In this document: positions 35,229 to 38,917 of the stretch, in pieces | How the letters are laid out: each line of letters starts with the position of its first letter | Position numbering within the stretch: the first letter of the stretch is position 1 | NCBI RefSeq assembly: GCF_000317895.1 | Contig: NC_019567.1 | Coordinates: 3,906,001 to 3,970,000 of the forward strand | Direction of reading: 5' to 3' | From: Bdellovibrio bacteriovorus str. Tiberius | GTDB taxonomy: Bacteria; Bdellovibrionota; Bdellovibrionia; Bdellovibrionales; Bdellovibrionaceae | DNA: 64,000 nucleotides | Notes under the pieces: model-generated | The model's input: the letters and a program-made list of their open reading frames with translations, nothing else | The model's database searches: none | What the model was told of the DNA's origin: nothing | Position numbers and translations under genes: made by a program

Positions 35229-36239
35229 TTGTCTAAAAAAGATTTTTACTCCCTTTTGAATGTTTCCCGCTCTGCCACTGCCGATGAGATCAAAAAATCT
35301 TATCGCAAGCTGGCTATGCAGTATCACCCGGATAAAAATCCCGGTGATAAAAAGGCCGAGGAAAAATTCAAGGAAATCACCGAGGCCTACGAAGTCTTGA
35401 GTGATACCAAAAAACGCGAAATGTACGACCAGTTCGGTCACGCCGGAGCCCAGGGCTTTGGCGGAGCTGGCGGCCCGTTCGGTGGTGCTGGTGGATTCGG
35501 CGGCTTTGGTGGCGCCGGAGCCGGCGGTGCTGGAGCTGGTGCCGGTGGTGATCCGTTCCAGGACATCTTCGGTGATGTCTTTGGCGAGATCTTCGGCAAT
35601 GCCCGCGGCCCGGGTGCCGGTGCCGGTGGTGCGCGCGCCCGTCGTCCCAGCAAGGGCACGGATCTGCGCTACACCCTGAATATCTCTTTTGAAGAATCCG
35701 CTTTAGGCAGCGAAAAAGTCATTAGCTTCATGCGCCAGCGCGGCGGCCGTGAAGAGCCGGCAAAATTATCCGTGAATGTTCCTGCTGGCGTGAAAGAAGG
35801 CCAGCGCCTGAAACTGGCTGGCGAAGGTGATGCTTCCGGTGGCGCGGCTGCCGGAGACCTGTATGTGATTATCAACATTCAGGAACACCCGCTGTTCAAA
35901 CGAAACGAAAACGATGTGACATTGGATCTTCCGATTGTTTACACCGATGCGATTTTGGGAACCAACATCGAAGTTCCGACCCTGACGGGAAAAGCCATGA
36001 TCCGTATTCCTCCGGGAACACACTCTGGGCAGACTTTCCGTCTGAAGGGCAAAGGCTTCCCGAAACTGGGTGGCTTCGGATCCGGTGACATGCTTGTGCG
36101 CGTTCTGGTGGACACTCCAAGCAGTCTAAGCAACAAACAAAAAGAACTGGTGGAAGAACTTGCCAAGACCACGGACACAAGTCCTTTGGTGAAGGCCTTC
36201 CAGGATAAAGTCGCACAACTGATGAGGACGCGTAAATGA
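35229..36239 (+). CDS. DnaJ/CbpA-type J-domain co-chaperone without zinc fingers
   Basis: 336 residues starting with TTG, eight bases after AAGGA. J domain with His33-Pro34-Asp35 ([10 protein letters not shown]), a long Gly/Phe/Ala-rich region (about 75-135), then two C-terminal substrate-binding domains ([35 protein letters not shown]). The four CxxCxGxG repeats of classical DnaJ are absent, making it a type II (CbpA-like) protein. It stimulates the ATPase of DnaK. It is paired with grpE and overlaps the following lipoprotein gene. Confidence 0.92.
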
Positions 36240-37906
36240 AACCCTACTTTTCACTCTTGCTGACGGCCGGTCTTCTGGCTTCCTGTACGACAGTAGCCAC
36301 CAAACGCGCTCCGATGAAACCTGCGGCGACCACTGCCGCCACCGGAAAAAAGCCAAAAGCCGTAGGCGGCCTTACCACGGGTAAACCTCCTGAGCAGATT
36401 GAAAGTGAAACCTTGAGTGTTCCAGGCGCACCATCAACGGATGTGCTGGGACAACTGAAATCCCTGGTGAACCAGGCTGTGCAAGCGCCCAGCAAGGCCG
36501 ATCAGGAATCTTACCGTCTGAAGGCCATCGACATTGTAGAGAACAAACTCAACGAAGATCAGCTGGAAGACGTTGCCGATGAATCTGATTTTGGTTTCCT
36601 GCGCGGACATGCGATGTTCCGTCTGGGTGAAATTTCTTTGGATAAAAAAGACACCTCTGACGCTAAAAAATACTTTAACTCCGTGACGGAATTTGTTCCG
36701 GGCAGCGATCTTGCGCTGCGAGCCCAGGAAATCATCCTGCAGCTGGATTCCGCGAGAAACGTGAAATCCCAGACTGTCGGCGTGGTGCTGCCTTTAAGCG
36801 GCCGTAACGCCCCGGTGGGACAGCGTGCCCTGCGTGGCCTTGAAATGGGCTTGGGGCTGCATATTCCGGGCTCTGGCTTCCAGTTGGCCGTGATGGACAG
36901 TGAAGGCAATCCTGATTCCGCCCGTCGCGGTGTCGAACGTCTGGTGAAAGAAGACAACGTCATTGCCATCGTGGGAAGCTTGCTTTCAAAGACCGCTCCG
37001 GCAGTTGCGGCAAAGTCTGACGAACTGGGTGTGCCGACCATCGCCCTTTCCCAGCGTTCCGGTTTGACCGAAGTGGGCCCCACAGTGTTCAGAAACTCTC
37101 TGACCAGCGGTATGCAGGTGCGCGCCCTGGTTCGCACCGCCATGGAAGACATGGGCATGAAAAAGTTCGCGGTGCTTTACCCGAACGATCCGTACGGTAT
37201 TGAATTCACCAACATCTTCTGGGATGAAGTTTTGGCCCGTGGTGGTGAGATCACTGCGGTTCAGACCTATTCGGTGAAAGAAACAGACTTCCGTCTGGTG
37301 GTGCAGCGTCTGGTGGGAACTTACTTCGGTGAAGCCCGTCAGGATGAATTCAACATGCGTTTGAAAGAGCTTCAGACCTCTGGAAAAAAACACTCGGTTC
37401 GCCAGAGCAATCTTGAAAACGTGCTGCCACCGATCACGGACTTTGATGCGATCTTTATCCCCGACTCGGCCCGTGCGATGGGACAGATCTCGGCGATGCT
37501 GTCTTATAATGATGTGCGCGGCGTGAAGCTTTTGGGAACCAATCTTTGGAACACCAAAGACATCGCCAAACGTGCCGGGAATTTTTCGCAGAATCTGATC
37601 TTCGTCGACAGCATGACTCCGGCGAATCAGGATCGTTCGCGTTTTGTGAACGAATACCGCAGCCTGTACAATGAACCGCCTTCCCTGATTGAAATCCAGG
37701 CTTATGATGCTGGTCTGATCCTGCGTCAGCTGATTGCCGCCGGAGCCAGCTCCCGTGAGGAATTGGTGCAGAAACTGGGGCAGCTAAATAAGTTCCCAGG
37801 ATCGCTAGGAAACCTCAGTATTAATGCTGAGCGCGAAATCGAGCGCCCGGTGACCGCCCTAACTATTGAAAAAGGCGAAGTAATTCCCCTTAAAGTCCGC
37901 AAATAG
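36236..37906 (+). CDS. LpoA-like penicillin-binding-protein activator lipoprotein
   Basis: 556 residues. Lipobox LLASC with the lipidated Cys at about 16. An N-terminal helical/TPR-like part (about 60-170) is followed by a periplasmic-binding-protein type I fold ([20 protein letters not shown] and [20 protein letters not shown]). This is the architecture of LpoA, the outer-membrane lipoprotein that activates PBP1a, but simple amino-acid-binding proteins share the second domain. The ATG overlaps the dnaJ stop (ATGA), linking it to the chaperone operon. Confidence 0.8.
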
Positions 37907-37937
37907 TATCTATAAGTTAATTTAATGACGATTTTTT

Positions 37938-38010
37938 AACCCCCTTCTTGCGGTGCCCTGTCTTAGGAACACCAGCGACCAAGAAAGTCGCAAATCTTTA
38001 GAAGGGGGTT
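37938..38010 (+). promoter_or_regulatory. Long inverted repeat that could sequester the ribosome site of the first DksA-like gene
   Basis: AACCCCCTTCT at 37938-37948 is an exact 11-base reverse complement of AGAAGGGGGTT at 38000-38010. The right arm contains the ribosome site (AAGGGGG), five bases before the ATG at 38014. Between the arms a second perfect hairpin GCGAC/GTCGC (in GCGACCAAGAAAGTCGC) and a GGTG/CACC pair can form. Such a fold would block translation until opened. A transcription factor site is the alternative. Confidence 0.6.
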
Positions 38011-38013
38011 GTT

Positions 38014-38385
38014 ATGACAAGTCGTATTTCTGAAAACTTAGTGATGGAGTGCAGAAGAAAACTTCTAACCGCGAAACAGGATGTTTTGAATCGTTTCAGA
38101 ACAGCCCAGCGCGAACTGGTCCATGCGGAGCGTGGCGGTGACGAAGCAGATCAATCTGTCGCCCACATCGAAGAACATTCTTTTTTGATATCCCAAGCAC
38201 GCATGAGAAATCAACTGGTCGAGATCGAGATGGCCCTGGCACGTATCGAGCAAGGCACATTCGGTATCTGCGAAGAGACTGAGGAAGCTATCGAATCTGA
38301 AAGGTTGCTGGCAATTCCGTGGACTCGTCTGTCCATCGAAGGCGCTGAGATGCGAGAAGCGGTAAGTCGTAAGTTTGCGCGATAA
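38014..38385 (+). CDS. DksA/TraR-like protein lacking a complete zinc finger
   Basis: 123 residues. A long helical pair (coiled coil) with an acidic tip (GGDEADQSVAHIEEH), then the DksA-family block RIEQGTFGICEETEEAIESERLLAIPWTRLSIE. Family members usually read CxxC...CxxC there. Here only the first Cys (GIC) remains; the others are Thr, Ser and Gly positions. DksA-type proteins enter the secondary channel of RNA polymerase and adjust transcription, often with ppGpp. The fold may be kept without zinc, as known for some family members. A related gene follows. Translation may be controlled by the upstream inverted repeat. Confidence 0.85.
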   Translation: MTSRISENLVMECRRKLLTAKQDVLNRFRTAQRELVHAERGGDEADQSVAHIEEHSFLISQARMRNQLVEIEMALARIEQGTFGICEETEEAIESERLLAIPWTRLSIEGAEMREAVSRKFAR

Positions 38386-38423
38386 ATAATCACGCTGTGC
38401 ATTTTTAGTGACAGATAATCATT

Positions 38424-38473
38424 CCCCCGTAATATGCGATCAATTTTCGGCCAAGGATCATCATATCGGGGGG
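38424..38473 (+). promoter_or_regulatory. Inverted repeat covering the ribosome site of the second DksA-like gene
   Basis: CCCCCG (38424-38429), two unpaired bases, then ATATG (38432-38436) pairs with CATAT (38462-38466) and CGGGGG (38467-38472): 11 pairs with one small bulge. The right arm overlaps the G-rich ribosome site GGGGGGTGAG just before the ATG at 38478. The same segment also contains a promoter-like GTGACA-N16-TAATAT (38408-38435). If that promoter were used, the left arm would not be transcribed. Confidence 0.55.
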
Positions 38474-38477
38474 TGAG

Positions 38478-38858
38478 ATGAACGCAACCGAACTCACAGA
38501 GTTGACAGAGACTGAACTGCAAAATCTAAAAGAATCCTTGCTCTTCCAAAAGGGCACGATCCTCAATAAATCACATGAATTTAAAGAGGAACAATCCAGC
38601 ATGGCTGCGGTTGCGGACGAGGCGGAAGCCGCTTCTCAGGATATCTCCAATAATATTTCCATTCATCTGCACGAACGTGACCGTACAGCTTTGTACGCGA
38701 TCGAAAGAGCTTTGGGGAAAATTGCTGACGGGACATACGGCCAGTGCGAATCCTGCACGGAAATCATCAATGCACGCCGCCTGCAAGCACGACCTTTCAC
38801 AGCCCTTTGTATTGACTGCATGGAAGAACAAGAAAGCCAGACTGGCCTCTTCCAATAA
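38478..38858 (+). CDS. DksA/TraR-type zinc-finger regulator
   Basis: 126 residues. N-terminal coiled-coil helices (ELTELTETELQNLKESLLFQK; DRTALYAIERALGKIADG) and an acidic tip (ADEAEAASQD), then the intact zinc finger CESC...CIDC within GTYGQCESCTEIINARRLQA. It is shorter than E. coli DksA (151) but has its core features. It should bind RNA polymerase and tune transcription. It lies 92 bases after the cysteine-poor paralogue and before a terminator and lon. Confidence 0.9.
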   Translation: MNATELTELTETELQNLKESLLFQKGTILNKSHEFKEEQSSMAAVADEAEAASQDISNNISIHLHERDRTALYAIERALGKIADGTYGQCESCTEIINARRLQARPFTALCIDCMEEQESQTGLFQ

Positions 38859-38875
38859 CATTCATATTTAAACTC

Positions 38876-38917
38876 ATTGGATGAGGTCCGCTGACATGGA
38901 TGTCAGTCCAATTTTTT
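38876..38917 (+). terminator. Rho-independent terminator after the DksA-like pair
   Basis: Inner perfect stem CTGACAT / ATGTCAG (38891-38906) with an outer pair ATTGGA / TCCAAT (38876-38881, 38907-38912), followed at once by TTTTTT. This separates the two DksA-like genes from lon. Confidence 0.8.

Follow-up and report, generated by a model that had tools for sequence, protein, structure and literature searches.

An inverted repeat at the ribosome-binding site of a DksA-like gene of Bdellovibrio bacteriovorus is probably a promoter-embedded fold-back element that silences read-through transcripts

The locus and its inverted repeat

In the 64,000 nt stretch of the B. bacteriovorus strain Tiberius genome analysed here (the window; the genome is a single contig of 3,988,594 bases), the Shine–Dalgarno (SD) sequence of a DksA-like gene lies within one arm of an exact inverted repeat, which raises the question of whether, and in which RNA, this ribosome-binding site is hidden. 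The genes and the terminator-like site of the locus are as follows.

36236–37906, + strand: lppC-like gene, encoding an LppC/periplasmic-binding-protein-like lipoprotein (ORF, Pfam Peripla_BP_6)
38014–38385, + strand: dksA1, DksA/TraR-like, 123 aa (PF01258 match; conserved dksA1–dksA2(–lon) order)
38478–38858, + strand: dksA2, DksA-like, 126 aa, complete C4 zinc finger (PF01258, sequence)
38890–38917, + strand: intrinsic-terminator-like hairpin and T run 3' of dksA2 (sequence)

The order is lppC-like gene, dksA1, dksA2, terminator-like hairpin (38890) and lon; the dksA1–dksA2 order is kept across the family, with lon next wherever the fetched sequence extends that far. Both DksA-like products exceed the Pfam cut-off for the zf-dskA_traR domain, which places them in the DksA/TraR C4 zinc-finger family. 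Of the four cysteines of the zinc finger, dksA1 retains just one (CEET; the second CxxC is absent) and dksA2 all of them, so that, judged by cysteine content, a putatively zinc-independent and a putatively zinc-dependent member adjoin here. A further DksA-like paralogue, ∼60 % identical and located elsewhere, was used as a control in the comparisons below. Directly 5' of the start of the third DksA-like gene, TTCCAAATTGGCACTTA, which is partly sigma54-like, is conserved across most of the genus and recurs in some other genera (L043, L044, L106–L111).

The repeat itself was confirmed in all its parts, which are listed below.

37938–37948, + strand: left arm (anti-SD), overlapping the predicted −35 and promoter spacer (sequence; spacer–SD complementarity tests)
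38000–38010, + strand: right arm with the SD AGGGGG at 38003–38008 (sequence)
37975–37991, + strand: small GCGAC/GTCGC hairpin, kept in the promoter-derived leader (folds)

The arms, AACCCCCTTCT and AGAAGGGGGTT, are exact 11 bp complements separated by a 51-base gap, with the inner pairing of GCGAC (37975–37979) and GTCGC (37987–37991) that an initial annotation of this DNA had described, and the SD in the right arm belongs to the ATG at 38014. When 37900–38040 was folded, the energy was −39.6 kcal/mol, whereas shuffled sequences averaged −26.2 (z −3.5), and in the modelled read-through RNA the SD was fully paired, which bears out the claim that the repeat is able to mask it. The window contains five exact inverted repeats of at least 11 bp with loops of 3–60, whereas equally long first-order Markov sequences average 0.75. 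Four of the five have short loops, and the dksA1 repeat is the sole long-looped case. Furthermore, when the 55 gene starts of the window, which were called roughly, were ranked by the z-score of upstream–SD complementarity, dksA1 was the most extreme (z −4.5) and dksA2 the second most extreme (z −3.6). The repeat is probably under selection.

A predicted ECF-type promoter overlaps the left arm

Comparison of the regions upstream of dksA1 across many genera of the family revealed two conserved blocks, [TC]TAACC and [GA]TC..A, between which 18 bases vary freely. TAACC-N18-[GA]TC was present in 55 of 61 orthologue upstream regions and its N19 form in another four; any other gap between TAACC and [GA]TC occurs at most four times, and the pair was found in none of the 45 upstream regions of the DksA-like paralogue. 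As constant block spacing around a variable interior is a promoter signature, and a GTC-type −10 is a hallmark of ECF promoters, we annotated the following predicted features.

37936–37941, + strand: predicted ECF-type −35, TTAACC (TAACC invariant, 18–19 nt from [GA]TC in 59/61 orthologues)
37942–37959, + strand: promoter spacer, 18 nt, species-variable and complementary to its own SD region (comparison)
37960–37965, + strand: predicted −10, GTCTTA (conserved motif)
37970–37974, + strand: predicted transcription start region, ∼37972 (6–8 nt past the −10; CC(A)A conserved)

In other genera, CC(A)A is conserved at roughly the same offset as the predicted start. Transcription of dksA1 would begin at ∼37972, 3' of the left arm; as that arm lies within the promoter, the hairpin would be possible only in RNA entering from upstream. 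The lppC-like gene is the presumed source of such RNA, and a search of the + strand from 37700 to dksA1 found no terminator-like site, making read-through plausible.

Genome-wide, the pattern TAACC-N18/19-GTCTNA gave seven matches against 21 for the reversed control, and YTAACC-N18-GTCNNA gave nine against 18; with no enrichment of the motif, lone matches away from conserved positions mean little. A FliA-promoter set tried as a control yielded 18 matches against 15 in its own control, too few to be of use, and was set aside. A CATAAG further upstream was also considered as the dksA1 −10, but it is unsupported across genera. An A/T-rich palindrome, CATAAG..TTTTATG/TTTAATG (window 37910–37930), is conserved in most of the genus at a fixed distance 5' of the predicted −35, and is possibly an UP element or activator site.

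The position of the predicted start bears directly upon the initial annotation, which took the repeat for a thermometer, attenuator or riboswitch-like element and had itself counted a start 3' of 37948 against this reading. A cis-regulatory RNA of this kind (a thermometer, riboswitch or protein-binding leader), transcribed from a promoter 5' of the left arm and opened by a signal, would account for the strong fold (z −3.5) and the sequestered SD, and a conserved A/T-rich palindrome like CATAAGAATATTTTATG just 5' of the repeat could serve as its promoter or operator. We nevertheless give it little credence. The conserved bases, TAACC and GTC..A, stand at a fixed 18–19 nt around a free interior, as in a promoter rather than an aptamer, and they recur at an ECF sigma gene and at raiA (below), whilst the inner hairpins are rearranged or missing in several species. 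A search of Rfam families at gathering and relaxed thresholds returned no usable match; the best weak hit (E 0.12) reached 21.8 bits where the cut-off was 55. A thermometer would call for an SD helix of weak pairing and marginal stability, melting close to the growth temperature; we found instead an 11 bp stem with five consecutive G–C pairs (−37 kcal/mol overall); a GC-rich stem of this length exceeds usual thermometer stability. Moreover, when covariation of the arms was examined in a fixed register, it did not rise above the control, with 64 of 500 shuffles reaching the observed level. With the predicted start 3' of the left arm and covariation at control level, the earlier reading lacks support, and a riboswitch, thermometer or attenuator within the dksA1 mRNA is unlikely. 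An intrinsic terminator was also discarded, as the right arm is not followed by a run of U, and the idea of a leader-RNA family model was given up when the conserved bases turned out to be promoter-spaced.

The promoter spacer is complementary to the SD beyond chance

We next compared the pairing of spacer and SD region with that of shuffled spacers. For the genus representatives the spacer–SD duplex of dksA1 was −14.1 against −10.5 when shuffled, and for other genera −10.0 against −8.7, with 0 and 2 of 500 shuffles, respectively, as low. Exchanging right arms amongst all representatives matched the native pairing in 2 of 5000 swaps; within the genus alone the figure was 447 of 5000, which is not significant because the right arm hardly varies there. 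The sequences are related and not independent, so all of these counts are optimistic; even so, comparison across orthologues shows that the complementarity of spacer and SD at dksA1 exceeds chance.

The arms shift and change jointly by lineage, appearing as AACCCCC/GGGGGTT, GGCCCCC/GGGGGCT and CGACCTCCTTC/GAAGGGGGTCG, and in another genus as GGCCCCCT/AGGGGGCC. It is this retention of complementarity in shifting registers that leaves fixed-column covariation at the level of the control, and shifting registers are to be expected if only masking of the SD matters.

Predicted accessibility of the dksA1 SD follows the same pattern. In the Bdellovibrio genus, the predicted probability that the SD is unpaired was 0.05 in read-through RNA, 0.19 with the spacer shuffled and 0.46 in promoter-started RNA; for other genera the corresponding values were 0.26, 0.30 and 0.60. 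Masking is modest beyond the genus and absent in a few species; in the strain studied here, the SD is predicted to be only ∼0.4 unpaired in promoter-started RNA.

These data speak to two further explanations. The complementarity might have no function and simply result from a C-rich spacer being opposite a G-rich SD, and the biased composition on both sides, together with the merely modest excess in other genera, is in keeping with this. We consider it unlikely, although less so than a regulatory leader, given that spacer shuffles which preserve composition lose the complementarity (0/500 in the genus and 2/500 in other genera being as low), that the arms change jointly across lineages, and that it is present at both of the adjacent genes, dksA1 and dksA2. 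Additionally, the spacers before raiA and an HNH-like gene, which carry the same promoter motif, show no spacer–SD complementarity. Alternatively, the repeat could be a pair of DNA operators bound by a repressor or a looped protein, as overlap of the left arm with the promoter might suggest. Against this, each arm is asymmetric, and arm sequence and position differ among close species, with only their mutual complementarity at the SD being kept, making an operator pair highly improbable.

Fold-back of read-through RNA as the probable explanation

Two complementary arms, the right one lying on the SD, were found, and the dksA1 inverted repeat is in our judgement probably a promoter-embedded fold-back element that silences read-through transcripts. 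The left arm, which overlaps the −35 and spacer of the predicted ECF promoter, would be missing from an mRNA begun at ∼37972. RNA reading through from the lppC-like gene would carry both arms and fold, such that the SD is hidden and the message hardly translated, whilst in RNA begun at the gene's own promoter the SD would be partly free. Translation of dksA1 would in this way depend on the gene's own promoter, and that promoter would most likely be read by a Bd0743-type ECF sigma factor.

A similar layout had been noted at the second DksA-like gene, and this also held, with CCCCCG at 38424–38429 pairing with CGGGGG at 38467–38472.

38408–38435, + strand: predicted dksA2 promoter, sigma70-like GTGACA-N16-TAATAT, with spacer anti-SD CCCCCG at 38424–38429 (comparison)
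38467–38473, + strand: dksA2 right arm/SD, CGGGGGG (sequence)

Among dksA2 upstream regions the gap between TGACA and TAATA was N16 in 24 cases, N17 in 10 and N18 in two, with no other gap occurring. The spacer–SD duplex in the genus was −16.4 against −11.5 for shuffled spacers (0/500 as low), and the SD is predicted to be unpaired with a probability of 0.03 in read-through and 0.67 in promoter-started RNA. The fold-back explanation would thus extend to dksA2, where the same trick would be played with a sigma70-like promoter. Between the two genes, AGCAGTGC..GCACTGCTTTTTT forms a terminator-like hairpin that ends dksA1 and abuts the dksA2 −35 in many relatives (e.g. L016–L022); it is degenerate in the window strain.

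Devices of this type are known elsewhere. The transposase of IS10/Tn10 is protected from external transcription, in that RNA entering from outside folds so as to cover the start site; it differs from dksA1 in being part of a mobile element and in involving no alternative sigma factor. In phage T4, early read-through RNA of late genes (e, soc, I-TevI and others) folds over the ribosome-binding site, and the late promoter is placed so that late RNA cannot form the masking fold (PMC2988022). As modelled for dksA1, the promoter there lies inside the hairpin, with read-through RNA masked and promoter-started RNA open; the T4 cases, however, are phage genes serving late-phase timing, whereas dksA1 and dksA2 are chromosomal DksA-like genes with predicted promoters of ECF type and of sigma70-like type, respectively, in an arrangement kept throughout a bacterial family. 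For Bacillus subtilis sigG, a large hairpin that does not form in RNA from PsigG has been proposed to block translation of spoIIG read-through RNA (PMC5942855). Like dksA1, sigG is a chromosomal regulator gene, and its own alternative-sigma promoter lies, as modelled for dksA1, within a hairpin that would mask only read-through RNA; unlike the present pair of adjacent genes, it is a single gene of unrelated sequence in Firmicute sporulation. The suggestion that the layout represents a class not described before is therefore not supported, T4 late genes and sigG sharing the arrangement. Fold-back silencing of read-through RNA is a known device, here apparently conserved at two adjacent chromosomal genes.

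What had been suspected to be a new RNA switch thus becomes a concrete and testable proposal of leak-proofing by a promoter-containing hairpin, in a layout conserved at two adjacent genes across one bacterial family. More generally, it serves as a warning that an inverted repeat over an SD may lie outside the mRNA. We suggest, tentatively and with rather less confidence than for dksA1 itself, that at both DksA-like genes beside lon the promoter spacers of Bdellovibrionaceae act as anti-SD insulators, and that the timing of dksA1 is left solely to an ECF sigma factor of Bd0743 type.

Bd0743 and other genes with the motif

An ECF sigma gene also carries the TAACC–[GA]TC motif, which stands 5' of each of the 30 orthologues that were fetched (29 with N18 and one with N17). 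This sigma factor is the orthologue of Bd0743, its −35-recognition residues (R, F, N, P, D, T, K, A, A, M, K, R) matching those printed in PMC3464611, so that the gene of the sigma factor itself carries the motif. Bd0743 is an RpoE-like sigma factor of B. bacteriovorus for which no E. coli-type RpoE sites were found and the recognition sequence was left open (PMC3464611). An orthologue is present here, its gene preceded by the same TAACC-N18-GTC element as dksA1; whereas in that study its site went unmatched to that of E. coli RpoE, here a motif can be predicted for it. In two genomes (G029 and G057) neither Bd0743 nor dksA1 has a clear orthologue; in G050, which is 94 % complete, dksA1 is present and preceded by the motif, but a Bd0743 orthologue was not detected. 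With this co-absence and its one exception, it is likely, as far as comparison of genomes goes, that a Bd0743-type ECF sigma factor serves the dksA1 promoter.

In four genomes the motif, with spacers that differ, also precedes orthologues of raiA, which encodes a ribosome hibernation factor (Pfam Ribosomal_S30AE, E 2.5e-14), and raiA is thus a predicted fellow member of the dksA1 ECF regulon. The predicted Bd0743 recognition sequence would then be [TC]TAACC-N18-GTC, and its first predicted targets the sigma gene itself, a DksA-like gene and raiA, an outcome that we regard as more useful than the hairpin. If correct, ECF co-control of a DksA-like RNA-polymerase regulator and RaiA would amount to a sigma-gated starvation programme in a predator, and one that has evolved leak-proofing at the translation step.

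Several minor observations accompany the motif. Before raiA, TTAACC-N18-GTCTCA occurs together with a conserved leader (G000:C1:817467–817496, L183; also L192, L194 and L211). In two genomes the motif stands before a small HNH-like gene for a probably secreted protein, with a weak Pfam match (G000:C1:2160957–2160986, − strand, L185; L193). Finally, at the Bd0743-orthologue gene (G000:C1:726608–727257; L127, L135) every orthologue has its predicted −10 no more than ∼10 nt from the first ATG; the message may therefore lack a leader, or translation may in truth begin at a more internal codon.
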